Source: Ferrovibrio terrae | GTDB taxonomy: Bacteria; Pseudomonadota; Alphaproteobacteria; Ferrovibrionales; Ferrovibrionaceae | Length of the DNA stretch: 64,000 bases | NCBI RefSeq assembly: GCF_007197755.1 | Contig: NZ_CP041636.1 | Span: forward strand, 3,694,001 to 3,758,000 | Direction of reading: 5' to 3' | Shown here: one piece after another, positions 27,428 through 46,407 of the stretch | Layout: each line of letters starts with the position of its first letter | Numbering within the stretch: the first letter of the stretch is position 1 | Made by a program: the position numbers and the translations under genes | Notes under the pieces: model-generated | What the model was told of the DNA's origin: nothing | Seen by the model: the letters and a program-made list of their open reading frames with translations, nothing else | The model's database searches: none

Positions 27428-30400
27428 TCAGCCAATCGCCAGAAGCCAGGCTTCGATCTGTTCATCGCCGAACAACTCGACCTGGGCCTGCGTCAGTGCA
27501 TTGGCTTGGGTCGTGGTCATCGAGGAAATCGACGTCGTGGTCAGGCCAACAATGGCGGTCAACGAAATGGCCGCCAGCTGGGTGGTCGACAACTCGTCGA
27601 TATCGATTTCCTCGAGGGCGCCAACCTGGGTCAAGGTCAGACCGGTCATCTGCGCCGCGGTCAGAACGCCAACCTGGGCCGCGTCCAATCCGTTGAAGGC
27701 GGTTTCCGTCAACGCGCCAATCTGGGACGCTGAGAGGCCGGCCAGCGCCGTGGTGCTGAGCGCCACCGTCTGCGTGCTGTCGAGGGCGCCAAGCTGCGTC
27801 GTGGTCAGCGCTTTGACCTGCGCCGAGGTCAGTACGCCCAGCCGATCCGTATCGAGTGCGTTCAGGCTGGTGGTGGTGAGCGCCGCAATCTGCGTGGCCA
27901 GCAGGCCGCCCACCGCAGTACTGGTCAGCGCCTCGACCTGGGTGCTTTCCAGGGTGCCGATCTGCGTGGCGGTCAGGCCCCTCGCCTGCGTCAGGCTCAG
28001 AACACCGAACTGATCCGCTGTCAGCGCGTCAAGCTGCGTCGTGGTCAGCGCACCGATTTGCTGCGACGTCAGGCCGGCCACGCGCGTGGTGTCCAGCTGA
28101 GCCAGATTGGTGGTGCTCAGGGCCGCCGCCTGTGTCGTGCTCAGCGAACCAAGCTGGGTCGAGCTCAGTTCGTTGAAATCCTCCGGATCAAGCTGGTTGA
28201 TCTGCGTCGTGGTCAGACCGCGCAATTGGATAGCGGTCAAGGCCTGCGCCTGAGTGGTATCGAGGTGCTTGAGGTTGGTACTGCTCAGGGTCTGCAGTTG
28301 CGTCGCCGTCAGCGATTTGATCTGTGTCGAGCTCAGCTCCGCAATGTCAGTCTCTTCCAGCCCCTCGATCTGTGTCGTGGTCAGGGCCGCGATCTGACTC
28401 CCCAGCAATGCCTGGGTCTGCGTCTCGTCCAGGGCGTTGAAGGCCGTGGTCGTCAACGAGCCGATCTGCGCAGCGGTCAGGCCAGCCAGCGCCGAAGTGC
28501 TGAGCGCGGTGATCTGCGTGGACAAGGCACCGAGCTGCGTTGTAGTCAGCCCCTTCACCTGCGTCGCAGTCAGGGCGCCAAATACAGCCGTATCAAGATT
28601 TTCAATCTGCGTGGTGGTCAGGCCGCTGAGCTGGGTGGCTGCCAGATTGGCGATCGTCGTGGTGCTGAGTTCCGAGAACTGCTCGGTAGACAGCGAACCG
28701 ATCTGCGTCGAGGTCAGGCCCTTGATCTGGGTCGAAGTCAGCGCCGCAAAGACCGTCGTATTCAGTTCATCGATTTGGGTCGTCGTTAGCGCGCCGATCT
28801 GCGTCGAAACGAGGGCCGCAATGCGGGTTTCATCAAGGTCTGGCAGGAGGGTGGTGCTCAGGCCCTTGATCTGGGTGGTGGTCAGGGTGCCGAACTGCGT
28901 CGCTGTCAGTTCATTCAGATCGGCCGCCAACAAGCCGTTCAGCTGCGTGGTGGTCAACGCCCTGAGCTGGGCGCTGCTGAGCGCCTGGAACTGGGTTTCG
29001 TCGAGTTGCGACAGGTTTTCGGTCGACAGAGACTTGATCTGCGTCACCGTCACCGCCTTGAGCTGGGTTACGGTCAGATCGGCGACATCTTCGGAACGCA
29101 AGCCAGCGATCTGCGTCGTGGTCAGGCCGGCAATCTGAACTGTGGTCAGCGCGCGGGTCTGGGCGGTATCAAGCTCGTTAAGCGCTTCCGTGCTCAACGC
29201 CGCGATCTGGGTCGCAGCCAGGCCGGACAGGGTCGTGGTGCTCAGCGCCGTGATCTGCGTGCTGTCGAGCGACCCGAATTGCGTGGTGGTCAGCCCCTTG
29301 ATCTGTGTGGCCGTCAGCGCGGTGAATGCCGTGGTGCTGAGGGCGCCCAGCTGTGTCGTGGTGAGAGCGCCAAGCTGCAGCGCCGTCAAACCGCCGACCT
29401 GTGTGGTGGTCAGTTCGGCAATGGCGGTCTCGTTGATGGCCTTGACCTGCAGGGTGGTCAGACCTGCAAGCTGGGTCGAGGTCAGATCCAGCAGATCGGT
29501 GCTTTCAAGTCCGGCAATCTGCGTGGTGGTCAACGCCTTGAGCTGCAATGCACTCAGAGCCTGGAACTGGGTGGTGTCGAGCGCTTCCAGATCTTCCTGC
29601 TCCAGCGCCGCAACCTGCGATGCCGTCAAAGCCTTGATCTGCGTCAGGCTCAGTTCACCGATATCGGTGGTGGTCAGTTCCGCAACCTGCGTGGTCGCCA
29701 GACCGGCAATCTGTGCGGCGCTCAGCGCCGACGTTTGTGTGGTGTTGAGTTCAGACAGATTGGTCGACGTCAATGCGCGCAACTGCAACGTGGTCAGCGA
29801 CTTGATCTGCGTTGTCGTGAGATCGGCAACATCGAGTGAATCAAGCGACGCGATCTGCGTCGTGGTCAGGGCTGCAATCTGCGTCCCCGCCAGGGACTTT
29901 GCCTGGGTCGAACTCAGTGCGTTCAGCGTCGATGTTGCCAGGGCTTTGATCTGCGCCGCCGTCAGGCCGGCCAGAGCAGCGGTGCTCAGCCCCTCAACCT
30001 GCGTATCCTTCAACGCGGCCACTTGCGTGGTCGTCAGCCCCTTGATCTGCGTCGATGTGAATGCGGCAAAAACAGTCGAATCGAGAGTGTCGAGCTGTGT
30101 CGAGGTCAGGCCGCCGATCTGCAGAGCGGTCAGGTTGGCAATAGCGGTCGAACTCAGAGCGCTGAACTGGTCATTGTCCAACGAACCGATCTGCGTCGAC
30201 GTCAAGCCCTTGGTCTGCGTCGACGTCAGGGCCGCGAAGACCTCGCTGGTAATCGCGTCAAGCTGCCCGGTGGTGAGCGCGCCGATCTGGGTCGCGGCCA
30301 GGGCCCCAACCTGGGTTTCGGTCAGGTTTTCTATGGCACCATCGGTAAAGGCGCGAATCTGCGTCGTGTTCAGGCTGCCGAACTGCGTGGACGTCAGTTC

Positions 30401-33400
30401 ACCAAGGTCTTCGCTGCTGAGCCCGCTGATCTGCGTCGTCGTCAGGGCCTGCACCTGCGCCGTGGTCAGCGCCTGCGCCTGGGTCTCGGTCAGAGCCGCG
30501 AGATTTTCGCTGGTTAGCGACTTGAGCTGCGTCGCGGTCAGCGCCTTGATCTGGGTCGTGCTCAGCTCGGCGATATCTTCCTCAGCCAGAGCATTGATCT
30601 GCGTCGTGGTCAGGCCGGCGATCTGCGATGCCGTCAGGGACTGCATCCGCGTGGTGTCGAGACTGTTCAGCGCAGTCGAGGTCAACGCACCGAGCTGAGA
30701 ACCGGTCAGGCCGGAAATCGCTGTGCCGCTCAGCAGTGCAATCTGGGTATCTTCCAGCGATGCGATCTGGGTGGTGGTCAGCCCCTTCACCTGCGTGACG
30801 TTCAACGCACCGAGCAGGGTTTCGTTCGCGCTATCAAGCTGCGTAGTGGTCAGCGCTGCGATTTGAAGTGCCGTAAGACCACCAACCTGTGCTGACGTCA
30901 GAGTCTCAAGGACCGCTGCATCAATGCTGCTGATCTGCGCTGTTGACAGGGCGCCGATCTGCGTCGACGTCAGTTCCTCCAGATCGGAGGCCGCGAAATT
31001 CGCTATCTGCGTCGTGGTCAACGCCTTGAGCTGTGCCGCCGTGAGCGCCTGAGCCTGCGTCTCGCTCAGCGCGGAGATGCTCTCGCTGGTGAGGCCTTTA
31101 AGCTGCGTCGCCGTCAGCGACTTGATCTGCGTCACCGTCAGATCGGCAATTGAATCCACGTCGAGCGCATTGATCTGCGTCGTGGTCAAGGCGGCGATCT
31201 GGGTGGCGAGCAATGCTTTGCTCTGCGTCGTATCCAGAGCGATCAGCGCCTCTGTGCTGAGGGCCGCAATCTGCGACGAAACCAGGCCCGTGAGTGCGGT
31301 CCCTGTCAGGGCCTTGACCTGGTCTTCCAGCAAGGCGCCGACCTGGGTGGTCGTCAGTCCCCTGATCTGGGTCGAGGTCAGGACGCCCAGCGCTTCCGTG
31401 CTGAGTGCGCCAATCAGCGTGCTGCTCAGGCTGCCGATCTGGGCAGACGTCAGACCGCCGATCGCAGTCGTGGTCAGTCCGCTGAACTGGGTTTCATCCA
31501 GCGACGCAATCTGCGTCGTGGTCAGGGCCTTCACCTGCGTCGTGCTCAACTCGGCAATGACCGTCGATGTCAGAGCGTCAAGTTGGGTGGTGCCAAGAGC
31601 GCTGATCTGGCTGGCAGCCAGCGCTTTTACCTGGGATGTGGTAAGGAAGCCGATAACAGTGTCGCTGAGACCCTTGATCTGCGTGACCGACAGGGCCGCG
31701 ACCTGACTGGTGCTGAGTTCCGCAACGTCCGCATCAATCAGATCGTTCAGCTGCGTCGTGGTCAGCGCCTGAATCTGCTGATTGCTCAACGCCTGGACCT
31801 GCGTGGTTTCGAGAGCCGCCAGGCCATCACTATTCAGCGATTTGATCTGCGTGGCTGTCAGCGCCTTGAGCTGCGTCGTCGTCAGATCGGCAACATCCGT
31901 CGTTTCCAGCGACGAAATCTGGGTCGTGGTCAGGGCTGCGATCTGCGTGGCAGCCAGCGCTTTGCTCTGCGTCGTATCCAGAGCAATCAGCGCCGTGGTG
32001 CTCAGGGCGGCAATCTGTGTGCCCGCAAGGCCGGTGAGCGCGGAGCTGCTGAACGCGGAAACCTGGGTCGATTCGAGCGCCTTGATCTGCGTCGTGGTAA
32101 GCCCCTTGATCTGCGTCGAGGTCAGAGCGCTCACGGTGGCGGTATCAAGAGAATTGAGCTGTGTCGAGGTCAGACCACCGATCTGCGAAGCGGTCAGGCC
32201 GCCAATCGTGGTTGTGGTCAGCAGGGCAAACTGTTCGTCGCTAAGCGCACCAAGCTGAGCCGCCGTCAGCCCCTTGATCTGGGTGGCCGTCAGCGCCGAG
32301 AAGGCGTCGTCATCCAGTGATGCGATCTGCGTCGTTGTCAGCGCGCCGATCTGCGCGACCGCCAGAGCCTGAACCTGCGTCGTCTCGAGTTCATTCAGAG
32401 TCGTGGTGGTCAGGCCCTTGATCTGGGTGGTCGACAGGCCCTTGATCTGCGTCTCACTCAGCTCGCGCAGGTCGTCTGATGTCAGGGTGTTCAATTGCGT
32501 CGTGGTCAGAGCCTGCAACTGCAGCGTGGTAAGTGCCTGGGCCTGGGTGGTATCCAGCGCCGACAGATTCGTATCCGTCAGCGCCTTGATCTGCGTAACA
32601 GACAGGGCCTTGATCTGTGTCGTGGTCAGATCCGCTACATCCGCAGTATCCAGCGCTGCGATCTGCGTGGTCGTCAGCGCCGCGATCTGCGTGGCGCCAA
32701 GCGCCTTGCTTTGTGTCGTATCCAGCGCATTCAGTGCCTCTGTGCTCAGAGCTTTGATCTGGGCAACAGTGAAGCCCGCAAGCGCCGCGGTGCTCAGAAC
32801 CCCCACCTGGCTGCTGGTCAACGCACCGACCTGCGTGGTCGTGAATCCCCTGATCTGCGTCGCGGAGAGCGCGCCCAGAGCATCGGTGCTCAGGGCATCA
32901 ATCAACGTTGCGGTCAGGCCGGAAATCTGGGCGGACGTGAGGCCGGAAATGGCCGCAGTGCTGATCGCACCAAACTGCGTGGTCTCCAGAGAACCGATCT
33001 GCGTTGAGGTCAGCCCCTTCACCTGGGTGGAGGTCAGTTCAGCGAAAACAGCGTCGCTCAGCCCATCAATCTGGGTCGTGGTGAGGCTGGCGATCTGCGT
33101 GGCGGTCAACGCCTGCCGCTGAGCGCTGCTCAGGCCATCAATATTGGTATTGCTGAGGTTCGCAATCTGCGTAGTACTGAGGCCGGCTATCTGCGTCGTA
33201 TTGAAGTCGGCAAATTCGACGGCAGCAAGATCATTCAGCTGGGTTGTGGTCAGCCCCTGGAGCTGCGCCGTCGACAGCACCTGAATCTGCGTCGAGGTCA
33301 ACGTCGCCAGATTATCGCTGCTCAGAGCCCGCAACTGCGTGGTGGTGAAGCTCTTCAGCTGTGTGACGGTCAGTTCTGCCACATCCGCGGAGTCCAGCGC

Positions 33401-35998
33401 CGCCACCTGCGTCGTGGTCAACCCCTTGAGTTGGGTTGCCGTCAGCGCAGCGCTCTGCGTCTCGCTCAGGGCATTCAGCGCTGTCGTGATCAAAGCGCCG
33501 ATCTGCGAAGAACTCAGCGCCGCAAGCACTGTGCTGCTCAGAGCAGTAATCTGGGTTTCATCAAGCGAGGCGATCTGCGTTGTCGTCAGGCCCTTGGCCT
33601 GTGTCGAGGTCAGCAATGCGATCTCGTCGGCATCCAGACTGTCGAGCAACGTAGTGCTCAACGTACTGATCTGCGATGCAGTCAGGCTCTGCAGCCGCGT
33701 TGACGTCAGATCAGACAGCGCGGTCGAATTCATTGCCGCTATCTGGGTGGTCGAAAGTGCGGCAAACTGCGTCGAACTCAACTCATCGACATCGGTTTCA
33801 CTGAGGCCCGCGATCTGCGTCGTGGTCAGCGCCTTGATTTGCGCCGTGCTCAGCGCCTGGAACTGGGTCGTGTCGAGTTGCGAGAGATTTGTGCTGGTCA
33901 GCGCCTTGAGCTGCGTGACGCTCAATGCCTTGAGCTGCGTTGTGGTCAGATCCGCTACATCCGCAGTATCCAGCGCCGCAATCTGTGTCGTGGTCAGGGC
34001 CGCAATCTGGGTGGCCGTCAACGCCCGGGTCTGCGTGGTGTCCAGTTCATTGATGGCCGAGGTGGTCAGCGCGGCGATCTGGGTGCTAGCGAGTGCTGAA
34101 ATGGCCGCGGTAGTCAGGGCTGCAACCTGGCTCCCCTCCAGCGACGCGATCTGCGTCGTGGTCATGGCCTTGACCTGAGTGGAACTCAGTCCGGCAAATA
34201 CATCCTGATCCAGCGCATCGATCTGCGTGGTGGTCAGAACGCCGATCTGCGCAGCCGTCAGGTTGAGAACCTGGGTATTTGTGAGCCCGTCGATCGCCTT
34301 GATCTGAGTCGTCGATAAGCCGGCAAACTGGGTGGCGGTCAGCAACCCGATCTGCTCAGAGACCCATCCAGAAATCTGCGTCGTGGTGAGTCCGCCGATC
34401 TGGCCAGACGACAAGGCACCGATCTGCGCCGACGACAAATTGTTCAAATCGTCCGTTGCCAGCGACCGCAGCTGGGTTGTCGACAGAGCCGAAAGCTGCG
34501 CTACCGTCAGGTCGCCGACGTCAGCACTGTCGAATGCATCGATCTGCGTTGTGGTAAAGCCTTTGACCTGCGTCGTGGTCAGCGCCTGTACCTGCGTGGC
34601 GTCCAGGAAATTGAGCGCAGTAGTGCTTACCGCTCCGATCTGAGCCGCTGTCAGTCCCGACAGTGCGACATTCGTCAGAGCGGCAACCTGGGTATCTTCC
34701 AGTGATGCGACCTGGGTCGTCGTCAGCCCCTTGACCTGCGTCGAGGTCAGCGTGCCAAACGCCTCCCCTACCAGCACATCCAGCTGCGCCGTCGTCAGCG
34801 CGCCGAGCTGTGTCGATGTCATATTGGAAACCTGTGTCGTGGACAGGCTTTCGATCGTCTCTGTGCTCAGCACTTTAATCTGGGAGGACGTCAGCGCCTT
34901 GAATTGCGTCGCTGTCAGCGCCGCGCTGTCCAGCGCGGCAATCTGCGTCGTAGTCAGATTGGCAACCTGTGTCGTAGTCAGCGCCGCTGTCTGCGTGGCA
35001 GTCAGGACCTTGAGACCATCCGTGCTCAATGCGCGCAGCTGCGTGGTGCTCAGCGCGGCGAGCGCCGATGTGGCCAGCGCTTCGACATTCGTCTCGCTCA
35101 ACGCACCGATCTGGGTCGTCGTCAGGCCCTTGGCCTGCGTCGCATTCAGGGCCCCAATAGTCTCAACGCTGATCCCGTCGAGCTGTGTCGTGGTCAGGGC
35201 GCCGATCTGGGTCGCCGTCAGCTGTCCGAATTGCGTGGTGGTGAACTCATCGAGATCCGCCGCCAGGAGCCCCCTGATCTGGGTCGTCGACAGGGCGCGA
35301 AGCTGCGTCGACGTCAGCGCCTGCGCCTGCGTTTCCTCCAGCGCGCTCAGATTGGTGGTGCTGATTCCCGTGAGCTGTGTTGATGCCAGCGCCCCCAGCA
35401 CCGAGTTGCTGAAAGCCTGGAACTGAGCCTGATCGAGCGCGCCCATCTGGGTCGCCGACATGCCCTTGACCTGAGACGAGCTCAGCACGCTCAGAATATC
35501 AGGGACAAGCAGCTTGAACTGCGTCGTGGTGAGCGCGCCGATCTGCGTCGACGCGAAATTCTTGAAATGGCTTGTCGTCAGGTCATTCAACGTGGTCGTG
35601 CTGAGCAGACGCAGCTGACCCGTGCCGACCTGGGCCAGCTGGGCTGCGGTGAGTTCGTCAAACTCCTCGACGCGTAACGCGCCAACCTGGGTGGTATTCA
35701 GGCTGCGGATCTGCGTACCGCTGAGCGCCTGCATCTGGGTGCTGTCGAATTCCAGGATCTTGGTCGACAGCGCTTGAATCTGGGCCGAACTGAAGACGGC
35801 GATCTGAGCGGCATTGAAGACCATCTGGTCTTCATTGAAGTAACCAATCTGCGTCGACAGGAGCTGCGCAACCTGTCCCGTGTTGAGCGCGACGATCTGG
35901 GTGGAGTCAAGCGACTGAATATCAGTCGACGTCAGCGCCCTGAGCTGTGCAAGTGTCAGCGCCTTAATGCCGGAGGATGTCAGTTCTGATACACTCAT
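27428..35998 (-). CDS. Giant octapeptide-repeat protein (2856 aa)
   Basis: Unrecognised giant protein. After a GGAGAG ribosome site it reads without interruption in 8-residue units with the consensus xxL(S/T)(S/T)TQ(I/V/L), about 350 units. Leu at unit position 3 and Ile/Val at position 8 are near invariant. Units group as 7- or 10-unit cassettes, each closing with an LTTTQ unit, in super-repeats of 24 or 31 units. A non-canonical cap at residues 50-70 (GYFNEDQMVF) and a C-terminus ending QIEAWLLAIG break the pattern; both recur in the other giant protein. Ser/Thr dominate and there are few charges, no Cys to speak of, no N-terminal signal peptide and no membrane helix. Possible roles are a secreted surface fibre or S-layer-like protein. 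The downstream GT41 neighbour suggests glycosylation. Confidence 0.9.
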   Translation of the reverse strand: MSVSELTSSGIKALTLAQLRALTSTDIQSLDSTQIVALNTGQVAQLLSTQIGYFNEDQMVFNAAQIAVFSSAQIQALSTKILEFDSTQMQALSGTQIRSLNTTQVGALRVEEFDELTAAQLAQVGTGQLRLLSTTTLNDLTTSHFKNFASTQIGALTTTQFKLLVPDILSVLSSSQVKGMSATQMGALDQAQFQAFSNSVLGALASTQLTGISTTNLSALEETQAQALTSTQLRALSTTQIRGLLAADLDEFTTTQFGQLTATQIGALTTTQLDGISVETIGALNATQAKGLTTTQIGALSETNVEALATSALAALSTTQLRALSTDGLKVLTATQTAALTTTQVANLTTTQIAALDSAALTATQFKALTSSQIKVLSTETIESLSTTQVSNMTSTQLGALTTAQLDVLVGEAFGTLTSTQVKGLTTTQVASLEDTQVAALTNVALSGLTAAQIGAVSTTALNFLDATQVQALTTTQVKGFTTTQIDAFDSADVGDLTVAQLSALSTTQLRSLATDDLNNLSSAQIGALSSGQIGGLTTTQISGWVSEQIGLLTATQFAGLSTTQIKAIDGLTNTQVLNLTAAQIGVLTTTQIDALDQDVFAGLSSTQVKAMTTTQIASLEGSQVAALTTAAISALASTQIAALTTSAINELDTTQTRALTATQIAALTTTQIAALDTADVADLTTTQLKALSVTQLKALTSTNLSQLDTTQFQALSTAQIKALTTTQIAGLSETDVDELSSTQFAALSTTQIAAMNSTALSDLTSTRLQSLTASQISTLSTTLLDSLDADEIALLTSTQAKGLTTTQIASLDETQITALSSTVLAALSSSQIGALITTALNALSETQSAALTATQLKGLTTTQVAALDSADVAELTVTQLKSFTTTQLRALSSDNLATLTSTQIQVLSTAQLQGLTTTQLNDLAAVEFADFNTTQIAGLSTTQIANLSNTNIDGLSSAQRQALTATQIASLTTTQIDGLSDAVFAELTSTQVKGLTSTQIGSLETTQFGAISTAAISGLTSAQISGLTATLIDALSTDALGALSATQIRGFTTTQVGALTSSQVGVLSTAALAGFTVAQIKALSTEALNALDTTQSKALGATQIAALTTTQIAALDTADVADLTTTQIKALSVTQIKALTDTNLSALDTTQAQALTTLQLQALTTTQLNTLTSDDLRELSETQIKGLSTTQIKGLTTTTLNELETTQVQALAVAQIGALTTTQIASLDDDAFSALTATQIKGLTAAQLGALSDEQFALLTTTTIGGLTASQIGGLTSTQLNSLDTATVSALTSTQIKGLTTTQIKALESTQVSAFSSSALTGLAGTQIAALSTTALIALDTTQSKALAATQIAALTTTQISSLETTDVADLTTTQLKALTATQIKSLNSDGLAALETTQVQALSNQQIQALTTTQLNDLIDADVAELSTSQVAALSVTQIKGLSDTVIGFLTTSQVKALAASQISALGTTQLDALTSTVIAELSTTQVKALTTTQIASLDETQFSGLTTTAIGGLTSAQIGSLSSTLIGALSTEALGVLTSTQIRGLTTTQVGALLEDQVKALTGTALTGLVSSQIAALSTEALIALDTTQSKALLATQIAALTTTQINALDVDSIADLTVTQIKSLTATQLKGLTSESISALSETQAQALTAAQLKALTTTQIANFAASDLEELTSTQIGALSTAQISSIDAAVLETLTSAQVGGLTALQIAALTTTQLDSANETLLGALNVTQVKGLTTTQIASLEDTQIALLSGTAISGLTGSQLGALTSTALNSLDTTRMQSLTASQIAGLTTTQINALAEEDIAELSTTQIKALTATQLKSLTSENLAALTETQAQALTTAQVQALTTTQISGLSSEDLGELTSTQFGSLNTTQIRAFTDGAIENLTETQVGALAATQIGALTTGQLDAITSEVFAALTSTQTKGLTSTQIGSLDNDQFSALSSTAIANLTALQIGGLTSTQLDTLDSTVFAAFTSTQIKGLTTTQVAALKDTQVEGLSTAALAGLTAAQIKALATSTLNALSSTQAKSLAGTQIAALTTTQIASLDSLDVADLTTTQIKSLTTLQLRALTSTNLSELNTTQTSALSAAQIAGLATTQVAELTTTDIGELSLTQIKALTASQVAALEQEDLEALDTTQFQALSALQLKALTTTQIAGLESTDLLDLTSTQLAGLTTLQVKAINETAIAELTTTQVGGLTALQLGALTTTQLGALSTTAFTALTATQIKGLTTTQFGSLDSTQITALSTTTLSGLAATQIAALSTEALNELDTAQTRALTTVQIAGLTTTQIAGLRSEDVADLTVTQLKAVTVTQIKSLSTENLSQLDETQFQALSSAQLRALTTTQLNGLLAADLNELTATQFGTLTTTQIKGLSTTLLPDLDETRIAALVSTQIGALTTTQIDELNTTVFAALTSTQIKGLTSTQIGSLSTEQFSELSTTTIANLAATQLSGLTTTQIENLDTAVFGALTATQVKGLTTTQLGALSTQITALSTSALAGLTAAQIGSLTTTAFNALDETQTQALLGSQIAALTTTQIEGLEETDIAELSSTQIKSLTATQLQTLSSTNLKHLDTTQAQALTAIQLRGLTTTQINQLDPEDFNELSSTQLGSLSTTQAAALSTTNLAQLDTTRVAGLTSQQIGALTTTQLDALTADQFGVLSLTQARGLTATQIGTLESTQVEALTSTAVGGLLATQIAALTTTSLNALDTDRLGVLTSAQVKALTTTQLGALDSTQTVALSTTALAGLSASQIGALTETAFNGLDAAQVGVLTAAQMTGLTLTQVGALEEIDIDELSTTQLAAISLTAIVGLTTTSISSMTTTQANALTQAQVELFGDEQIEAWLLAIG
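27428..35998 (-). repeat. 24-bp (octad) coding repeats, diverged copies
   Basis: Continuous 24-bp periodicity across the gene. Examples of the higher-order pattern: a 24-unit period (576 bp) made of 7+10+7 cassettes, and a 31-unit period (744 bp) made of 7+10+7+7. DNA copies are clearly diverged from each other, unlike those of the other giant gene. Confidence 0.85.
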
Positions 35999-36033: not shown

Positions 36034-36041
36034 CGACCTGT

Positions 36042-38096
36042 TCAACTCGCGCGCTTTTTTCCCATATAGGCCTGCTCGGTGGCCTTGATCACCTTGGCTG
36101 TCCACAAACGCCGATCCTCGGGAACTGGGCGGAATTTGTGACGGGCAGCGATCTTGGCCTGGTAGAAACCGTTGAAATTGTCTTTCGCCAGCATTTCCTG
36201 CGCTTCGTGATCTTCTTCGCAGGACAGTTCGTGATAGAGGTCCAGATTAGCAAGATCGGGTACGGGAATTGCCCCCTTCTCGAAGTCCTGCCACATCTGC
36301 TGATACAGGCCCTCGAGCGATCGGGCCAGACCGTTCATATCGAACAGCACGCTGGTGTCGCGCACCTTGGCCAGCTTGTCGCGGCACTTTTTCAGTGCGG
36401 CGCGATCGTTGCCGAGCGCAATCGCTTTCTTGACATAATCCTCTGGCGACTCACAGATCATTTCCGGCATACCCACGGCCTGCACCAGGCTGCCGCAGAC
36501 GCGCGACGCGAAACCACGGCCGGAGAATGTCAGTACGGGAACACCCATCCACAGTGCATCGGACGCCGTGGTATGGGCACCATAAGGGAAGGTGTCGAGG
36601 AACAGATCGGCCAGCGGATAGCGCGCCAGGTGTCTCGGATTTGGCTGCTTAGCGGCGAAAATGATGCGGTCCGGCGAGATACCCCGCGCCTTCGCGCCTT
36701 CACGCAGTGTTTCATGCGTGACGTCGGACGACCCGAGCAGCCACAGAACGCTGTTCGGAACATTGGCGAGAATCTGCATCCAGCGGTCGAAGGTGAGCTT
36801 GCGCAGTTTATGCGCGCCGTTGAAGCAGCAGAACACCACGGCATCTTCAGGCAGGCCGGCATCCGCGCGGGTCGGCTGTTCGGTGGCGATCACGCGCTTA
36901 CGGTCGGTCGGCTGGTAGCACGGCAGGCGCGCCACCTTCTCCGTGTAATACACCTCGAAATCCTTCGGAATCAGCCACTCATCCGCAATGATATACTGAT
37001 GGTATGGACTCGCCATGCTGCCCGGATAGCCAAGCCAGTTCACGATTACCGGTGCCGGACGATACGACAGCGCCTTGGTACGCGCGTCGCGCGTATAACC
37101 GTTCACATCGACCAGGATGTCGATGTTGTCGGCGGCAATGCGCTCTGCCGCTGCACGGTCATCCATGTCGCTGACATCGATCCAGTGCTCAACGGCTGCG
37201 TTGATGCGTCGCTTGGTCGGATCGTCAGTCTTGATGCCGCAATAGTATGCGAAGACCTCGACCTTCTCGCGATCATGCAATTCGAACAGCTCTGACATCA
37301 GGAAGCCGATCGCATGCTCGCGCAGATCCGAGGAGAGATAACCGATGCGCAGCCGTTTCGACGGCTTGCGCGCCGTCGTCTGCCAAAGATATTCGCCATT
37401 AAGGGAAGGATCACCGATACCGCGGTTATACGCCCAGGCACCGCCCAGCTGGAACAGCGGATCATCCGAATAGGCACCCGATGATAACGGGCTGAAGCCC
37501 TTCATCAGGTCCATGCGGGTGACGCCCTCCCATGGCTCGACCACCGGCCACTTGTTCAGGATCATGCGCTGCGACAGGAAATGCTGCGCGACATCGTTCT
37601 GCTTCGGATCGAGCGTCAGACCCTGCCGCAACACGGCCTCGCATGAGGCGTGCTGCAGATTGCTTTCCAGCACACGGCCGATCTGCTTGTAGGCGGTCTT
37701 CTTATGCTCGATCGCCGGCGCGGTCAGTGTGGCCAGTCGCTGAACAATCAGATTCCACTGATTGACGGCCGCATTAGCGTTGCCCATGCGCTCCAGCACA
37801 TTGCCGAGATTGATATAGGCCGGATAGAAATCTGGATTGGCGGTGACGGTCTCTTCGTAGACCGCCTTCGCAGCGGGAAGATCGCCGCGTGCGCTTAGCA
37901 AAGTGCCAAGATTGAAACCTGCCACATACCGGAATGGGTCGGTGGGATTACACTTATCCCACAGCCTGTATAGCAGGATCGCCTTGTCAGCCTCACCACT
38001 GGTCTGCAGGCGCGCGGCCTGATCAATCAACTCCGTGATGGGCATCGGACGTTCGGCCAGTGTTGCGACCAAACTTTCGAAATGCGAACTACTCAT
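36042..38096 (-). CDS. TPR-GT41 (OGT/HMW1C-like) protein glycosyltransferase
   Basis: Soluble 684-aa glycosyltransferase of family GT41, which transfers UDP-activated sugar to proteins (O-GlcNAc transferase on Ser/Thr; HMW1C-type enzymes on Asn). TPR-like helices occupy about 55-165. The catalytic region (about 245-610) shows the GT41 hallmarks: RIGYLSSDLREHAIGFL with H261, DVNGYTRDAR, WLGYPGS, CCFNGAHKL with K430 and the C-terminal FPYGAHTTASDALWMGVP block (503-520). The last 80 residues are an unusual extension. It lies between the two giant Ser/Thr-rich genes, which are its most obvious substrates. Whether it uses GlcNAc, glucose or xylose cannot be read from the sequence. Confidence 0.93.
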   Translation of the reverse strand: MSSSHFESLVATLAERPMPITELIDQAARLQTSGEADKAILLYRLWDKCNPTDPFRYVAGFNLGTLLSARGDLPAAKAVYEETVTANPDFYPAYINLGNVLERMGNANAAVNQWNLIVQRLATLTAPAIEHKKTAYKQIGRVLESNLQHASCEAVLRQGLTLDPKQNDVAQHFLSQRMILNKWPVVEPWEGVTRMDLMKGFSPLSSGAYSDDPLFQLGGAWAYNRGIGDPSLNGEYLWQTTARKPSKRLRIGYLSSDLREHAIGFLMSELFELHDREKVEVFAYYCGIKTDDPTKRRINAAVEHWIDVSDMDDRAAAERIAADNIDILVDVNGYTRDARTKALSYRPAPVIVNWLGYPGSMASPYHQYIIADEWLIPKDFEVYYTEKVARLPCYQPTDRKRVIATEQPTRADAGLPEDAVVFCCFNGAHKLRKLTFDRWMQILANVPNSVLWLLGSSDVTHETLREGAKARGISPDRIIFAAKQPNPRHLARYPLADLFLDTFPYGAHTTASDALWMGVPVLTFSGRGFASRVCGSLVQAVGMPEMICESPEDYVKKAIALGNDRAALKKCRDKLAKVRDTSVLFDMNGLARSLEGLYQQMWQDFEKGAIPVPDLANLDLYHELSCEEDHEAQEMLAKDNFNGFYQAKIAARHKFRPVPEDRRLWTAKVIKATEQAYMGKKRAS

Positions 38097-38161: not shown

Positions 38162-38188
38162 CTTAATAAATCACTACGGGAAGCTGCT

Positions 38189-38227: not shown

Positions 38228-38235
38228 GAGGAGCC

Positions 38236-41200
38236 TTAGCCAAGGGCCTCGAGCCAGGCCTCGATCTGCTCGTTGCTCAGCACGCCGACCTGGGCCTGCG
38301 TGAAGGCATTCGCCTGGGTCGAGGTCAGCTCAGCGATGTTGGTGGTGCTGAGCAACTGGATCGCCGTGGTGTTGATCGCGGCAATCTGCGTCGCATGGAA
38401 CTCCGCGATATCGGAGGTATCCAGCGCGCCGATCTGCGTCGAGCTCAGACCAGCCACCTGTGCCGTCGACAGCGCCTGAACCTGGGCAGTGCTCAGGACG
38501 TTGAAGTTGGTCGTTCCCAGACCAGCAAGCTGCGTCGCAAGCAACTGGCCAACCTGAGTGGTGGTCAGGCCAGAGATGAAGGTCGTGTCGACGTCGCCCA
38601 ACTGCGTCGTCGTCAGAGCCTTCACCTGCAGGACGGTCAGAGCCGCAGACTGCGTGGTGTCCAGAGCGGCCAGCTGCTCGGTGCCCAGAGCTCGGACCTG
38701 AAGCGCGGACAAACCGCTGACCTGGGTCGTGCTCAGTTCACCGATATCCGTCGTCTCCAGGTTGCTGACCTGCGTGGTGGTCAGGCCGCCCAGCTGGGCG
38801 TTGGTCAGCGCCTGGGTCTGTGCGGTAGTCAGAGCCGACAGATTGGTGCTGTTCAACTGCTGCAGCTGGGTGGTGGTCAGACCCTTGATCTGCGTGGTGG
38901 TCAGATCCCCGATCTCGGTCGTGTCGAACGAGGCGATCTGCGTCGTGGACAGACCCGCGATCTGCGTCGCAGTCAGCGCCTGCTGCTGGGTGGTATCCAG
39001 AGCATTCAGGGCGGTGGTGCTCAGAGCCTGCAGCTGCGTCGCCACCAGACCGGTGAGCGCCGTGCTGCCCAGTGCGGCAGCCTGGGTCTCATCCAGCGAC
39101 TGGATCTGGGTCGTGGTCAGACCCTTCGCCTGCGTACTGGTGAGTGCGCCCAGCGCCGTGGTGCTGAGAGCGTCCAGCTGCTCGGTGCTCAGCGCCCCGA
39201 CCTGAGCCGAAGTCAGACCGCCGGCGAGTGTGGTGGTGAGTTCGCCCAGCGCCGTGGTGCTGATCGACTTCACCTGGTCCGTGGTCAGCGAGCCGAGCTG
39301 CGTCGAGGTCAGCTCAGTCAGATCGGTGGTCTCCAGAGCGCCGATCTGCGTCGTGGTCAGCGCCTTGAGCTGCACCGCCGACAGCGACTGAGCCTGCGCG
39401 GTGGTCAGCGCATTCAGGTCGGTGGTCTCAAGCGCACTCACCTGCGTCGTGGTCAGCGCCTTGATCTGCGTCGTCGACAGATCCGCGATGTCAGTCGTCT
39501 CAAGCGAGGCGATCTGCGTCGTGGTCAGAGCCGCGATCTGCGTGGCGGCCAGAGCCTGCTGCTGCGCGGTGCTCAGCGCATTCAGGTTCGTGGTCGTCAG
39601 CGACTTGATCTGCGTTGCCGTCAGCGCCTTGACCTGAGTGTCCGTCAGATCCCCGATCTCGGTCGTGTCGAGCGAGGCGATCTGCGTCGTGGTCAGGGCT
39701 GCGATCTGCGTCGCCGCCAGAGCCTGCTGCTGGGTGGTATCCAGAGCATTCAGGGCGGTGGTGCTCAGAGCCTGCAGCTGCGTCGCCGCCAGACCCTTGA
39801 TCGCCGTGCTGCTCAGCGCAGCGGCCTGCGTCTCATCCAGCGAGTCGACCTGGGTCGTCGTCAGACCCTTGATCTGCGTGCTGCTGATCGCGCCGATCGC
39901 CGTGGTGCTCAGCGCATCCAGCTGCTCGGTGCTCAGCGCACCCAGCTGTGCGGCCGTCAGACCACCAACCGAGGTCGTGGTCAGGTCGGCCAGCGCCGTG
40001 GTGCTGATCGACTTCACCTGGTCCGTGGTCAGCGAGCCGAGCTGCGTCGGGGTCAGATCAGCCAGGTCGGTGCTTTCCAGCGCGCCGATCTGCGTCGTGG
40101 TCAGCGCCTTGAGCTGCACCGCCGACAAGTTCTGAGCCTGCGTCGAGGTCAGCGCATTCAGGTCGGTGGTCTCAAGCGCACCGACCTGCGTCGTGGTCAG
40201 CGCCTTGAGCTGCGTCGCCGACAGATCCGCGATGTCAGTCGTCTCAAGCGAGGCGATCTGCGTCGTGGTCAGAGCCGCGATCTGCGTGGCGGCCAGAGCC
40301 TGCTGCTGCGCGGTGCTCAGCGCATTCAGGTTCGTGGTCGTCAGCGACTTGATCTGCGTCGCCGTCAGCGCCTTGAGCTGGGTCTCCGTCAGATCCGCGA
40401 TGTCAGTCGTCTCAAGCGAGGCGATCTGCGTCGTGGTCAGGGCTGCGATCTGCGTCGCCGCCAGGGCCGTGGACTGAGTGGTGTCCAGAGCATTCAGGGC
40501 GGTGGTACTCAGAGCCTGCAGCTGCGTCGCCACCAGACCCTTGATCGCCGTGCTGCTCAGCGCAGCGGCCTGCGTCTCATCCAGCGAGTCGACCTGGGTC
40601 GTGGTCAGACCCTTGATCTGTGCACTGCTGAGAGCGCCGATCGCCGTGGTGCTCAGCGCATCCAGCTGCTCGGTGCTCAGCGCACCCAGCACGCTCGCCG
40701 TCAGCGCACCGATCTGGCCGGCGCCGAGTTCAGCGATCGCCGTGGTGCTGATCGCCTTCACCTGGTCCGTGGTCAGCGAGCCGAGCTGCGTCGAGGTCAG
40801 CTCCGCGATGTCGGTGCTTTCCAGCGCGCCCACCTGCGTCGTGGTCAGACCCTTGAGCTGAGCCGCCGACAGCGACTGAACCTGTGTGGTGACCAGCGCA
40901 TTCAGGTCGGTGGTCTCAAGCGCACCGACCTGCGTCGAGGTCAGCGCCTTGATCTGCGTCTCCGTCAGGTCCGCGATGTCAGTCGTCTCAAGCGAGGCGA
41001 TCTGCGTCGTGGTCAGAGCCGCGATCTGCGTGGCGGCCAGAGCCTGCTGCTGCGTATCAGCAAGTGCATTCAGGTTCGTGGTCGACAGGGCCTGGATCTG
41101 CGCCGCACTCAGCGCCTTCACCTGGGCCACGGCGAGCTCTTCGATATCAGTGGTTTCCAGCGCACCGATCTGCGTCGTGGTCAGACCAGCAATCTGGGTT

Positions 41201-44200
41201 GCCGCCAGAGACTGCGTCTGCGTGGTGTCCAGAGCATTCAGGGCGGTGGTGGTGATCGCACCAACCTGCGCCGCAGACAGACCCTTGATCGCGGTGCTGC
41301 TCAGCGCAGCAACCTGGGTCTCATCCAGCGAGCCGACCTGGGTCGTCGTCAGACCCTTGATCTGCGTGCTGGTGAGCGCGCCAACGGCCGTGGTGCTCAG
41401 CACATCCAGCTGCTCGGTGCTCAGCGCACCCAGCTGCGAGGCCGTCAGGCCGCCCGCCGCGGTGGTGGTCAGGTCGGCCAGCGCCGTGGTGCTGATCGAC
41501 TTCACCTGGTCCGTGGTCAGCGAGCCGATCTGCGATGCAGTGAGCTCAGCCAGGTCGGTGCTTTCCAGCGCGCCGATCTGCGTCGTGGTCAGCGCCTTGA
41601 GCTGCACCGCCGACAGCGACTGAGCCTGCGCGGTGGTCAGCGCATTCAGGTCGGTGGTCTCAAGCGCACTCACCTGCGTCGTGGTCAGCGCCTTGATCTG
41701 CGTCGTCGACAGATCCGCGATGTCAGTCGTCTCAAGCGAGGCGATCTGCGTCGTGGTCAGAGCCGCGATCTGTGTGGCAAGCAGAGCCTGCTGCTGCGCG
41801 GTGCTCAGCGCATTCAGGTTCGTGGTCGTCAGCGACTTGATCTGCGTTGCCGTCAGCGCCTTGACCTGGGTCTCCGTCAGATCCCCGATCTCGGTCGTGT
41901 CGAGCGAGGCGATCTGCGTCGTGGTCAGGGCTGCGATCTGCGTCGCCGCCAGAGCCTGCTGCTGGGTGGTATCCAGAGCATTCAGGGCGGTGGTGCTCAG
42001 AGCCTGCAGCTGCGTCGCCACCAGACCCTTGATCGCCGTGCTGCTCAGCGCGGCGGCCTGCGTCTCATCCAGCGAGTCGACCTGGGTCGTCGTCAGACCC
42101 TTGATCTGCGTGCTGCTGATCGCGCCGATCGCCGTGGTGCTCAGCGCATCCAGCTGCTCGGTGCTCAGCGCACCCAGCACGCTCGCCGTCAGCGCACCGA
42201 TCTGGCCGGCGCCGAGTTCAGCGATCGCCGTGGTGCTGATCGACTTGACCTGCGTCGAGGTCAGCGAGCCGAGCTGCGTCGAGCTCAGTTCACTGACATC
42301 GGTGCTTTCCAGCGCGCCGATCTGCGTCGTGGTCAGCGCCTTGAGCTGAGCCGCCGACAGCGACTGAACCTGTGTGGTGACCAGCGCATTCAGGTCGGTG
42401 GTCTCAAGCGCACCGACCTGCGTCGTGGTCAGCGCCTTGACCTGCGTCTCCGTCAGGTCCGCGATGTCAGTCGTCTCAAGCGAGGCGATCTGCGTCGTGG
42501 TCAGAGCCGCGATCTGCGTGGCGGCCAGAGCCTGCTGCTGCGTATCAGCAAGTGCATTCAGGTTCGTGGTCGACAGGGCCTGGATCTGCGCCGCACTCAG
42601 CGCCTTCACCTGGGCCACGGCGAGCTCTTCGATATCAGTGGTTTCCAGCGCACCGATCTGCGTCGTGGTCAGACCAGCAATCTGGGTTGCCGCCAGAGAC
42701 TGCGTCTGCGTGGTGTCCAGAGCATTCAGGGCGGTGGTGGTGATCGCACCAACCTGCGCCGCAGACAGACCCTTGATCGCGGTGCTGCTCAGCGCAGCAA
42801 CCTGGGTCTCATCCAGCGAGCCGACCTGGGTCGTCGTCAGACCCTTGATCTGCGTGCTGGTGAGCGCGCCAACGGCCGTGGTGCTCAGCACATCCAGCTG
42901 CTCGGTGCTCAGCGCACCCAGCTGCGAGGCCGTCAGGCCGCCCGCCGCGGTGGTGGTCAGGTCGGCCAGCGCCGTGGTGCTGATCGACTTCACCTGGTCC
43001 GTGGTCAGCGAGCCGATCTGCGATGCAGTGAGCTCAGCCAGGTCGGTGCTTTCCAGCGCGCCGATCTGCGTCGTGGTCAGCGCCTTGAGCTGCACCGCCG
43101 ACAGCGACTGAGCCTGCGCGGTGGTCAGCGCATTCAGGTCGGTGGTCTCAAGCGCACTCACCTGCGTCGTGGTCAGAGCCTTGATCTGCGTCGTCGACAG
43201 ATCCGCGATGTCAGTCGTCTCAAGCGAGGCGATCTGCGTCGTGGTCAGAGCCGCGATCTGCGTGGCAAGCAGAGCCTGCTGCTGCGCGGTGCTCAGCGCA
43301 TTCAGGTTCGTGGTCGTCAGCGACTTGATCTGCGTCGCCGTCAGCGCCTTGACCTGGGTCTCCGTCAGATCCCCGATCTCGGTCGTGTCGAGCGAGGCGA
43401 TCTGCGTCGTGGTCAGGGCTGCGATCTGCGTCGCCGCCAGGGCCTGCTGCTGGGTGGTGTCCAGAGCATTCAGGGCGGTGGTGCTCAGAGCCTGCAGCTG
43501 CGTCGCCACCAGACCCTTGATCGCCGTGCTGCTCAGCGCGGCGGCCTGCGTCTCATCCAGCGAGTCGACCTGGGTCGTCGTCAGACCCTTGATCTGCGTG
43601 CTGCTGATCGCGCCGATCGCCGTGGTGCTCAGCGCATCCAGCTGCTCGGTGCTCAGCGCACCCAGCACGCTCGCCGTCAGCGCACCGATCTGGCCGGCGC
43701 CGAGTTCAGCGATCGCCGTGGTGCTGATCGACTTGACCTGCGTCGAGGTCAGCGAGCCGAGCTGCGTCGAGCTCAGTTCACTGACATCGGTGCTTTCCAG
43801 CGCACCGATCTGCGTCGTGGTCAGCGCCTTGAGCTGAGCCGCCGACAGCGACTGAACCTGTGTGGTGACCAGCGCATTCAGGTCGGTGGTCTCAAGCGCA
43901 CCAATCTGCGTCGTGGTCAGCGCCTTGACCTGCGTCTCCGTCAGGTCCGCGATGTCAGTCGTGTCCAGGGCCTGGATCTGCTCGGTGGTCAGAGCCGCGA
44001 TCTGCGTGGCGGCCAGAGCCTGCTGCTGCGCGGTGCTCAGCGCAACCAGGTTTGTGGTCGTCAGCGACTTGATCTGGGTTGTGGTCAGCGCCTTGACCTG
44101 GGTCTCCGTCAGATCTCCGATCTCGGTCGTGTCGAGCGAGGCGATCTGCGTCGTGGTCAGGGCTGCGATCTGCGTCGCCGCCAGGGCCTGCTGCTGCGTG

Positions 44201-46407
44201 GTATCCAGAGCATTCAGGGCGGTGGTGCTCAGAGCCTGCAGCTGCGTCGCCGCCAGACCCTTGATCGCCGTGCTGCTCAGCGCAGCGGCCTGCGTCTCAT
44301 CCAGCGAGTCGACCTGGGTCGTCGTCAGCCCCTTGATCTGCGTGCTGCTGATCGCGCCGATCGCCGTGGTGCTCAGCGCATCCAGCTGCTCGGTGCTCAG
44401 CGCACCCAGCACGCTCGCCGTCAGCGCACCGATCTGGCCGGCGCCGAGTTCAGCGATCGCCGTGGTGCTGATCGACTTGACCTGTGTCGAGGTCAGCGAG
44501 CCGAGCTGCGTCGAACTCAGTTCACTGACATCGGTGCTTTCCAGCGCGCCGATCTGCGTCGTGGTCAGTGCCTTGAGCTGAGCCGCCGACAGGGCCTGGG
44601 TCTGCGCGGTGGTCAGCGCATTCAGGTCGGTGGTCTCAAGCGCACCAATCTGCGTCGTGGTCAGCGCCTTGATCTGCGTCGTCGACAGGTCAGCGATGTC
44701 AGTCGTTTCAAGCGAGGCGATCTGCGTCGTGGTCAGAGCCGCGATCTGTGTGGCAAGCAGAGCCTGCTGCTGCGTGGTATCCAGCGCATTCAGGTTCGTG
44801 GTCGTCAGCGACTTGATCTGCGTCGCCGTCAGCGCCTTGATCTGCGTCTCCGTCAGATCCGCGATGTCAGTCGTCTCAAGCGAGGCAATCTGCGTCGTGG
44901 TCAGACCGGCGATCTGCGTCGCCGCCAGAGCCTTCGACTGGGTGGTGTCCAGAGCATTCAGCGCCGTGGTGGTGAGCGCGCCAATCTGCGTCGCCGCCAG
45001 GCCCTTGATCGCCGTGGTGCTCAGCGCAGCAACCTGCGTCTCGTCCAGCGAGCCGACCTGGGTCGTGGTCAGATTCTTGATCTGCGCGCTATTGAGCGCA
45101 CCAATCGCCGTGGAGCTCAGCACATCCAGCTGCTCGGTGCTCAGCGCACCCAGCTGCGAGGCCGTCAGGCCAGAGGCCTGCGTCGATGTCAGTTCGACCA
45201 GCGCCGTGGTGCTGAGCGACTTGAACTGCGTCGAGCTCAGCGAGCCGAGCTGCGTCGAGCTCAGTTCGAGCAGGTCGGTGGTTTCCAGAGCGCCGATCTG
45301 CGTCGTGGTCAGCGCCTTGAGCTGCACCGCCGACAGAACTTCGATCTGCGTCTGGACGAGCGCATTCAGGTCTTCCGTGTCAAGCACGCCGATCTGCGTC
45401 GCGGTCAGCGCCTTGATCTGAGTCGTGGTGAAATCAGCGATGTCCGAGCTGTCCAGCGACTTGATCTGCGTCGTGGTCAGGGCCGAAACCTGAGTCGCCG
45501 TCAGCGCCTTCTGCTGCGTGGTGTCCAGCGCAACCAGGTTCGTGGTCGACAGCGACTTGATCTGGGTTCCCGTCAGGGCCGAAATCTGAGTCGTGGTGAA
45601 GTCGGCAACATCGAGGCTGTCCAGCGCACCGATCTGCGTCGTGGTCAGAGCGGCAACCTGCGTGGCAACCAGAGCCCGGGTCTGATCAGTGTCGAGGGCG
45701 TTCAGCGCCGTGGTGCTCAGCGCCGCAACCTGCGACGTGAACAGCGCGCCGATGGCGGTGGTGGTCAGCGCAGTGGCCTGGGTTTCGTCAAGCTGGCCGA
45801 CCTGGGTGGACGTGAAGCCCTTCGCCTGGGTCGCGCTCAGAGAATTGATGAAGGTCGTGGACAGCGCCTGGGTCTGCGTCGTGCTCAGGCTCTGGACCGA
45901 GGTCGAGCTCAGACCGCCGATCTGCGCGGTGGTCAGCTGCTCGAGGTTCGAAGTGCTGATGGCCCGGATCTGGGTGGCGTTCAGCGCACCGAGCTGGGTC
46001 GAGGTGAACTCGCCAATGTCGGCATTCTCCAGCGCGCCGATCTGCGTCGTGGTCAGCGCGCGAATCTGCGTGGTGTTCAGCGCGACAATCTGCGTGGTGT
46101 CGAGCGCCGAAACATTGGTTGTGCTCAAAGCACCCAACTGGGCGGCGGAGAGCACCGCGATCTGGGCTGCATCGAAGACCAGCTGCTCGGAAGTGAAGTA
46201 GCCGAACTGGGTGGCGGTGAGCGCTTTGACCTGCGAGGTGAGCAGCGCATCGACCTGCGTCGTGCTGAGCGATTCGATGCCAGTCTGCGAGAGCGCCGCG
46301 ACCTGGGTCGACTTGAGCGACTGGATGTCTGTCGTGCTCAGGGCCTGAATGGCCGTCGAAGACAGGTTGGCAATCTGAGCAGTCGAAAGGAAGCTAATAC
46401 CGGACAT
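38236..46407 (-). CDS. Giant octapeptide-repeat protein (2723 aa)
   Basis: Paralogue of the giant protein at 27428-35998, sharing the octad consensus, the N-terminal cap (here GYFTSEQLVF at about 69-78) and the C-terminal QIEAWLEALG end. A GGGGGAGA site precedes the ATG. About 340 octads form regular 31-unit (248-aa) super-repeats of 7+7+10+7 cassettes. Middle super-repeats are almost identical to one another. The S/T-T-T-Q pattern places potential O-glycosylation sites at nearly every turn. No signal peptide, membrane helix or known domain. As first gene of the operon it has a 654-bp upstream region. Function is unknown; a surface or extracellular fibrous role is the best guess. Confidence 0.9.
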   Translation of the reverse strand: MSGISFLSTAQIANLSSTAIQALSTTDIQSLKSTQVAALSQTGIESLSTTQVDALLTSQVKALTATQFGYFTSEQLVFDAAQIAVLSAAQLGALSTTNVSALDTTQIVALNTTQIRALTTTQIGALENADIGEFTSTQLGALNATQIRAISTSNLEQLTTAQIGGLSSTSVQSLSTTQTQALSTTFINSLSATQAKGFTSTQVGQLDETQATALTTTAIGALFTSQVAALSTTALNALDTDQTRALVATQVAALTTTQIGALDSLDVADFTTTQISALTGTQIKSLSTTNLVALDTTQQKALTATQVSALTTTQIKSLDSSDIADFTTTQIKALTATQIGVLDTEDLNALVQTQIEVLSAVQLKALTTTQIGALETTDLLELSSTQLGSLSSTQFKSLSTTALVELTSTQASGLTASQLGALSTEQLDVLSSTAIGALNSAQIKNLTTTQVGSLDETQVAALSTTAIKGLAATQIGALTTTALNALDTTQSKALAATQIAGLTTTQIASLETTDIADLTETQIKALTATQIKSLTTTNLNALDTTQQQALLATQIAALTTTQIASLETTDIADLSTTQIKALTTTQIGALETTDLNALTTAQTQALSAAQLKALTTTQIGALESTDVSELSSTQLGSLTSTQVKSISTTAIAELGAGQIGALTASVLGALSTEQLDALSTTAIGAISSTQIKGLTTTQVDSLDETQAAALSSTAIKGLAATQLQALSTTALNALDTTQQQALAATQIAALTTTQIASLDTTEIGDLTETQVKALTTTQIKSLTTTNLVALSTAQQQALAATQIAALTTEQIQALDTTDIADLTETQVKALTTTQIGALETTDLNALVTTQVQSLSAAQLKALTTTQIGALESTDVSELSSTQLGSLTSTQVKSISTTAIAELGAGQIGALTASVLGALSTEQLDALSTTAIGAISSTQIKGLTTTQVDSLDETQAAALSSTAIKGLVATQLQALSTTALNALDTTQQQALAATQIAALTTTQIASLDTTEIGDLTETQVKALTATQIKSLTTTNLNALSTAQQQALLATQIAALTTTQIASLETTDIADLSTTQIKALTTTQVSALETTDLNALTTAQAQSLSAVQLKALTTTQIGALESTDLAELTASQIGSLTTDQVKSISTTALADLTTTAAGGLTASQLGALSTEQLDVLSTTAVGALTSTQIKGLTTTQVGSLDETQVAALSSTAIKGLSAAQVGAITTTALNALDTTQTQSLAATQIAGLTTTQIGALETTDIEELAVAQVKALSAAQIQALSTTNLNALADTQQQALAATQIAALTTTQIASLETTDIADLTETQVKALTTTQVGALETTDLNALVTTQVQSLSAAQLKALTTTQIGALESTDVSELSSTQLGSLTSTQVKSISTTAIAELGAGQIGALTASVLGALSTEQLDALSTTAIGAISSTQIKGLTTTQVDSLDETQAAALSSTAIKGLVATQLQALSTTALNALDTTQQQALAATQIAALTTTQIASLDTTEIGDLTETQVKALTATQIKSLTTTNLNALSTAQQQALLATQIAALTTTQIASLETTDIADLSTTQIKALTTTQVSALETTDLNALTTAQAQSLSAVQLKALTTTQIGALESTDLAELTASQIGSLTTDQVKSISTTALADLTTTAAGGLTASQLGALSTEQLDVLSTTAVGALTSTQIKGLTTTQVGSLDETQVAALSSTAIKGLSAAQVGAITTTALNALDTTQTQSLAATQIAGLTTTQIGALETTDIEELAVAQVKALSAAQIQALSTTNLNALADTQQQALAATQIAALTTTQIASLETTDIADLTETQIKALTSTQVGALETTDLNALVTTQVQSLSAAQLKGLTTTQVGALESTDIAELTSTQLGSLTTDQVKAISTTAIAELGAGQIGALTASVLGALSTEQLDALSTTAIGALSSAQIKGLTTTQVDSLDETQAAALSSTAIKGLVATQLQALSTTALNALDTTQSTALAATQIAALTTTQIASLETTDIADLTETQLKALTATQIKSLTTTNLNALSTAQQQALAATQIAALTTTQIASLETTDIADLSATQLKALTTTQVGALETTDLNALTSTQAQNLSAVQLKALTTTQIGALESTDLADLTPTQLGSLTTDQVKSISTTALADLTTTSVGGLTAAQLGALSTEQLDALSTTAIGAISSTQIKGLTTTQVDSLDETQAAALSSTAIKGLAATQLQALSTTALNALDTTQQQALAATQIAALTTTQIASLDTTEIGDLTDTQVKALTATQIKSLTTTNLNALSTAQQQALAATQIAALTTTQIASLETTDIADLSTTQIKALTTTQVSALETTDLNALTTAQAQSLSAVQLKALTTTQIGALETTDLTELTSTQLGSLTTDQVKSISTTALGELTTTLAGGLTSAQVGALSTEQLDALSTTALGALTSTQAKGLTTTQIQSLDETQAAALGSTALTGLVATQLQALSTTALNALDTTQQQALTATQIAGLSTTQIASFDTTEIGDLTTTQIKGLTTTQLQQLNSTNLSALTTAQTQALTNAQLGGLTTTQVSNLETTDIGELSTTQVSGLSALQVRALGTEQLAALDTTQSAALTVLQVKALTTTQLGDVDTTFISGLTTTQVGQLLATQLAGLGTTNFNVLSTAQVQALSTAQVAGLSSTQIGALDTSDIAEFHATQIAAINTTAIQLLSTTNIAELTSTQANAFTQAQVGVLSNEQIEAWLEALG
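38900..45400 (-). repeat. 744-bp (31-octad) tandem super-repeats
   Basis: Equivalent positions recur every 744 bp, for example at 39401, 41633, 43121 and 44609 (multiples of 744 apart) and at 40886, 42374 and 43862. About eight copies are visible; the outer limits given are approximate. Cassette order within a copy is 7+7+10+7 octads (168+168+240+168 bp). Confidence 0.85.
40886..43861 (-). repeat. Two near-identical 1488-bp tandem copies
   Basis: Positions 40886-42373 and 42374-43861 match almost base for base over 1488 bp (two 744-bp units). For instance, 41064-41255 and 42552-42743 have identical translations in the shadow frame. This shows recent duplication or gene-conversion homogenisation. 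Confidence 0.88.

Follow-up and report, generated by a model that had tools for sequence, protein, structure and literature searches.

Giant octad-repeat proteins of Ferrovibrio terrae with block lengths that fit a helical solenoid of about 3.44 octads per turn, encoded beside a putative O-GlcNAc-transferase-like enzyme

The stretch of Ferrovibrio terrae DNA analysed here (hereafter the window; 64,000 nucleotides of contig NZ_CP041636.1) comes from a complete 4.26 Mb genome and contains two genes for giant repeat proteins with a third gene between them, all three on the minus strand. Giant A (27428..35998) encodes 2856 aa, gene C (36042..38096) 684 aa, and giant B (38236..46407) 2723 aa. The relatives of gene C point to an origin in or near the genus Ferrovibrio. 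Downstream of A lies an FkbM-family methyltransferase gene (26216..27082, minus strand), identified by Pfam/NCBIfam, and upstream of B a gene whose PDB matches point to a UDP-glucuronate decarboxylase (UDP-xylose synthase; 47062..48003, minus strand). The composition of the two giants is alike, with a pI of 4.05 each, 30% Ser/Thr, no Cys and few Asn sequons. Both are members of the ALTTAQ repeat family PF20080, which in the Pfam scan matched more than 100 stretches in each, with scores (1104 bits for A, 1182 bits for B) exceeding the curated cut-off of 26.4 bits. The same scan gave no match in A or B to the calcium-binding nonapeptide repeat PF00353, which sets them apart from RTX proteins, and the phage records searched yielded no match. 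A 2681-aa open frame (38395-46440, plus strand) runs antisense through nearly all of B; it stays open because B lacks TTA, CTA and TCA codons and is probably a by-product of codon choice. Near giant A, a phage capsid-family gene and a tyrosine integrase (18607-25986, minus strand) look like a prophage or its remnant.

Dynamic-programming segmentation tiled A with 352 octads, with a few short breaks, and B with 338 and almost none, under the consensus L-[T/S]-T-T-Q-[I/L/V]-x-A. This bears out the octad pattern noticed in a preliminary description of the locus, which had also held that the blocks between canonical LTTTQ octads measure only 7 or 10 octads. Intervals of 7 or 10 were indeed far more frequent than expected: B has 29 such intervals among 48 and A has 22 among 48, whereas 10,000 shuffles gave 4.5 on average and never more than 13-14. 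The word "only" did not survive, however: B also has spacings of 3 and 4, with 3+4 splitting a 7, and more than half of the raw LTTTQ spacings in A are neither 7 nor 10. The register of A became visible only when all octad positions were used.

These blocks are assembled into longer super-repeats. In B the super-repeat is strict, measuring 31 octads (744 bp) throughout the array, with a lag-31 identity of 0.74 compared with a mean of 0.43. Eight consecutive 744-bp units (39361..45312, minus strand) have pairwise DNA identities of 0.82-0.995, and gaps of 10 octads start at octads 44, 75, 106 and so on to 292. Lag identities in A were nearly equal at 24 (0.437) and 31 (0.448) octads, relative to a mean of 0.37, and its acidic marker octads are spaced 7+17 (24) and 7+24 (31). 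The super-repeat counts made earlier, 31 octads in a "first giant" that corresponds to B and both 24 and 31 in a "second" that corresponds to A, both hold. The proposal that one 10-octad cassette is fixed per super-repeat describes the window proteins but not the wider family, in which the super-repeat lengths imply one (24, 31, 38 and 45 octads), two (27 and 34) or three (44).

At the DNA level, two adjacent 31-octad units of B were duplicated recently as a 62-octad block of 1488 bp, the units of 40849..42336 being 99.2 and 99.5% identical to those of 42337..43824 (both minus strand). The genome encodes a third giant of ~3226 aa at about 4.045-4.055 Mb (L027:6990-16670, minus strand). Between it and its orthologue in another Ferrovibrio genome, internal indels measure exactly 168 bp, or 7 octads, and 408 bp (360+48 bp), or 17 octads. 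The 168-bp indel agrees with the earlier suggestion that a 7-octad cassette is the unit of gain and loss; that unit is not exclusive, however, since 408-bp indels and the 1488-bp duplication also occur. In Ferrovibrio EaCA-1 the counterpart of giant A is broken into two open frames (L024:4325-13199, plus strand); the junction contains unresolved bases, so the break may be an assembly gap.

The highest summed peak of a Fourier analysis over the octad index fell at 0.2905 per octad (= 9/31) for B and at 0.2915 for A, so that residue identities have a dominant period of 3.44 octads (27.5 aa) in B and 3.43 in A. The block lengths give closely similar numbers of octads per turn (7/2 = 3.5, 10/3 = 3.33, 17/5 = 3.40, 24/7 = 3.43 and 31/9 = 3.44), and with a turn of ~3.44 octads, 7 octads amount to ~2 turns, 10 to ~3, 24 to ~7 and 31 to ~9. 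Across 20 octad proteins, which are not 20 independent cases because several are orthologous or contig-truncated, the band centroid averaged 3.441 octads (sd of frequency 0.0012); in the spectral band each protein stood above all 60 of its shuffles, and the band peak was the global maximum in 18. Ten of 11 lineages had periods of 3.39-3.45, while in the Pseudomonas giant a period of 2.45 fits slightly better than 3.38. The farther a lag lay from a whole turn, the lower its identity was (rho between -0.53 and -0.92 in the different groups). The preliminary description had anticipated a structural period, for example one superhelical turn, and the recurrence of a 3.44-octad period across lineages supports it, although neither 7 nor 31 octads makes a single turn. 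The repeat sequences support a reading in which the odd block lengths 7, 10, 24 and 31 would be whole turns on a screw of ~3.44 octads per turn. As a separate feature, some lineages (L055, L057, L025, L085, L089-L093) have a strict two-octad (16-residue) alternation superposed on the 3.44 period or dominating it, the latter in some proteins of f181, a proteobacterial family of another class.

Could the 7/10/31 register be a mere relic of past unequal crossing-over within this lineage, with no structural meaning? Copying alone can yield strict 31-unit arrays, and units of B are 99% identical in DNA. Yet the same period (3.38-3.45 octads) is found in lineages whose super-repeats measure 17, 24, 27, 34 or 44 octads: 24 in Niveispirillum, Verrucomicrobiales and f181, 34 and 24 in Cereibacter, 17 and 61 in Rhodovastum, and 27, 44 and 17 in Pseudomonas and Rhizobium. 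It is also present in UR115 and in the second giant of Niveispirillum, two proteins that are only weakly repetitive (their best lags reach identities of 0.34-0.35, where the mean is 0.30-0.32), and the indels between orthologues lie near whole turns. We therefore consider a mere crossing-over trace improbable and favor a register set by the geometry of the fold.

Structure prediction on 45 octads returned one short predicted helix per octad in a solenoid. AlphaFold2 models, built from alignments of internal repeats, were obtained for residues 862-1221 of B (pLDDT 95.1, pTM 0.84) and for a Verrucomicrobiales relative (pLDDT 94.1, pTM 0.81). Each has 45 helices in 45 octads and no strands, and the helices, mostly of 5-6 residues, begin at octad position 3. 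When the B model was aligned to ARM proteins, the turn came to ~28.6 residues with beta-catenin and 29.3 with importin-alpha (rmsd 7-12 A), an indirect estimate that takes 42.3 residues per ARM turn and is near but above 27.5. A scan of backbone geometries with one fixed filter set, which speaks to feasibility only, found compact solutions of both hands: right-handed ones, for which the median was 3.47 octads per turn, and more numerous left-handed ones, mostly with fewer.

Among solved structures, the closest sequence was HeliScrew4 (PDB 9zem, 120 aa; E 1.4e-12 and 3e-22), the best PDB sequence match, which shares the octad pattern (LTPEQIAAL...) with the giants but is 15 octads long and frequently carries Pro-Glu at positions 3-4. 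Since 9zem was absent among the fold-library matches of the B model, this likeness is one of sequence only. A search of one literature collection found no paper on HeliScrew4 or on ALTTAQ repeats, and PF20080 itself is a 38-residue model that names the sequence only; the Pfam output is silent on the 3.44-octad turn, the super-repeats and the gene neighborhood. The closest fold according to Foldseek was mesothelin (prob 0.91-1.00, E 1e-4 to 6e-4), whose 24 short helices are described as forming a right-handed solenoid (PMC10035497) and which differs from the giants in having 2-3 helices per 27-37-residue repeat and no regular octads. ARM proteins ranked top in VIA-align, but with Z of 5 to 9 (at most 8.9) and rmsd near 8 A these matches to solenoids of the ARM/HEAT/mesothelin kind, which have 2-3 helices per repeat of about 30-42 residues, are near the repeat-protein background, the level expected for unrelated repeat proteins.

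A different fold, a beta-solenoid or a horseshoe like that of leucine-rich repeats (LRRs), is what annotations such as "ice nucleation" and "heme utilization or adhesion" would imply; plasmid records carry those names, and many LRR chains were among the phmmer matches. The LRR chains scored far below HeliScrew4 and look compositional, and LRR proteins have a beta strand in every 20-30-residue repeat, whereas the models from two distant lineages are all-helical with pLDDT of 94-95. For A and B, the Pfam scan reported no ice-nucleation or haemagglutinin domain, and the ice-nucleation reading was rejected on the strength of the AlphaFold2 models. A beta-solenoid or LRR fold thus appears very improbable, and a helical solenoid remains the fold that we adopt. 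In Cereibacter, the records of octad giants (L107:11095-15780 and others) call them "heme utilization protein" or "ICE nucleation protein", names that the helical models do not support.

Plotting B on a wheel of 3.441 octads gathered the acidic residues of octad positions 2, 5 and 8 on one side (R 0.84-0.93), with the K/R of position 7 ~147 degrees from them. The angle between acidic and basic stripes averaged 149 degrees in the 19 proteins that have both. In A the phase of the acidic stripe was constant, at about 180-196 degrees, over ~240 octads, and in the third Ferrovibrio giant the stripe is rotated by ~140 degrees between the two halves of the protein. Opposed acidic and basic faces were rejected as a universal feature, since the faces do not lie opposite each other in the Verrucomicrobiales protein and are almost lacking in one of the f181 types.

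Turning to the neighboring genes, the product of gene C matched Pfam Glyco_transf_41 (E 9e-88) as well as TPRs, and its alignment with the PDB matches human OGT and XcOGT brought the active-site H, K and HTTxxD motifs into register. By these TPRs and OGT motifs, gene C is a predicted GT41 O-GlcNAc-transferase-like enzyme. The product of 47062-48003 matches human UXS1 over its full length (E 6e-127) and is 72% identical to its counterpart in a Pseudoroseomonas giant locus; this UDP-xylose synthase is probably a sugar-donor gene. The FkbM methyltransferase downstream of A likewise has a 62% homologue, located by tblastn, next to the Pseudoroseomonas giant. TPR-GT41 genes adjoin octad giants in Ferrovibrio and at least nine other lineages, namely Caulobacter segnis, Verrucomicrobiales, f181, Niveispirillum (and a relative), Cereibacter, Pseudoroseomonas, Pseudomonas, Rhodovastum and Rhizobium. 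In C. segnis and a Verrucomicrobiales metagenome-assembled genome (MAG), this adjacency emerged from gene C homologues that were fetched independently of the octads. The first plasmid loci had suggested a GT41 gene beside every octad giant, but wider sampling gave 10 of 15 distinct plasmid loci; none was present near the giants of the Shinella, Thioclava, Roseateles and Polaromonas plasmids or near the third Ferrovibrio giant. In one genome (G393), a gene divergent from that of an octad giant of >4000 aa codes for a protein of 3767 aa (L087:250-11553, minus strand) that combines eight Glyco_transf_41 stretches with numerous TPRs and is apparently a multi-OGT fusion.

A GT41 gene beside a very large, apparently secreted protein recalls the GT41 enzyme HMW1C, which glycosylates the large adhesin HMW1 in the cytoplasm before export (PMC3983070). 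The two systems differ in that HMW1C is without TPRs and modifies Asn sequons on a substrate that uses two-partner secretion, whereas gene C has TPRs and resembles O-GlcNAc transferases, and the giants are rich in Ser/Thr with few sequons.

Rather than leaving the cell, the giants might be unsecreted cytoplasmic scaffolds or rulers, with the neighboring GT41 regulating them or unrelated to them. Such a role would suit the giants in that no N-terminal signal peptide is evident in them and that no type I secretion genes were found among the Pfam-scanned neighbors of A and B; the one type I locus of the host genome is away from A and B, beside an RTX gene. The position of the third giant, with recA on one side and a PAS hybrid histidine kinase next to flhB on the other, would suit it as well. 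Against this, relatives in at least five lineages, Niveispirillum (and a relative), f181, Cereibacter, Pseudoroseomonas and Pseudomonas, lie directly beside ABC and HlyD (and TolC) genes, and the size, acidity and lack of Cys of the giants suit type I substrates. One relative, from a small-genome alphaproteobacterium, joins ALTTAQ repeats to bacterial cadherin domains (L058:5567-8989, plus strand), which also argues against a cytoplasmic role. A cytoplasmic scaffold is in our judgement unlikely; the frequent company of a glycosyltransferase and an exporter in relatives suggests glycosylated surface rods.

The explanation that best accommodates these observations overall, and that we hold to be likely, is that the giants are register-locked helical-screw solenoids, secreted as glycosylated rods of ~100 turns with fixed faces. 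The octad, L1-[T/S]2-x3-x4-Q5-[I/L/V]6-x7-x8, would form a single short helix spanning residue 3 to residue 7 or 8; [T/S]2 and Q5 fit an N-terminal capping box, while the side chains of L1 and I/V6 would point into the core. Successive octads would wind into a continuous solenoid, the "helical screw", with ~3.44 octads or 27.5 residues per turn. Because the turn number is not whole, surface positions would regain the same side only after near-whole turns (7, 10, 17, 24 or 31 octads, 17 octads being ~5 turns). A stripe of residues would drift to one side if all blocks had 7 octads and to the opposite side if all had 10, and a mixture of the two would hold it straight, comparable to the effect of stutters in coiled coils. 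For the same reason, register-preserving duplications and deletions (168, 408, 744 and 1488 bp) would be the ones to persist.

On this register, A and B would each be a rod of ~100 turns and roughly 90-100 nm, a length that assumes 9-10 A per turn from helix packing, with an acidic stripe of D/E (positions 2, 5 and 8) and, ~140 degrees away, the K/R of position 7. The giants would be made in the cytoplasm, where gene C, judging by its adjacency and conserved active-site motifs, may glycosylate their Ser/Thr residues, perhaps with xylose from the adjacent UDP-xylose synthase, and would then be exported by a type I system to serve as surface or matrix fibers; the rods could perhaps pack sideways through their charged faces. 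Pitch, handedness, glycosylation, export, rod assembly and function are thus properties of the giants that we infer. More tentatively, and with more doubt than confidence, the family as a whole may represent a widespread and undescribed class of bacterial surface fibers, type I-secreted and GT41-glycosylated rods of ~100 nm made of one-helix octads. Their sequence would be register-locked by "7s and 10s", which would preserve distinct charged or glycosylated faces over 100 turns and let the rods pack sideways.

If the helical-screw reading holds, the rule of 7- and 10-octad blocks reveals how many repeat units make up one turn of the solenoid in proteins of up to thousands of residues, and the lengths of duplications in DNA would be linked directly, and testably, to the geometry of a fold. 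The recurrence of GT41 enzymes and type I secretion genes, sometimes with a UDP-xylose synthase, would likewise give a functional hypothesis for proteins now annotated as "hypothetical", "heme utilization" or "ice nucleation".
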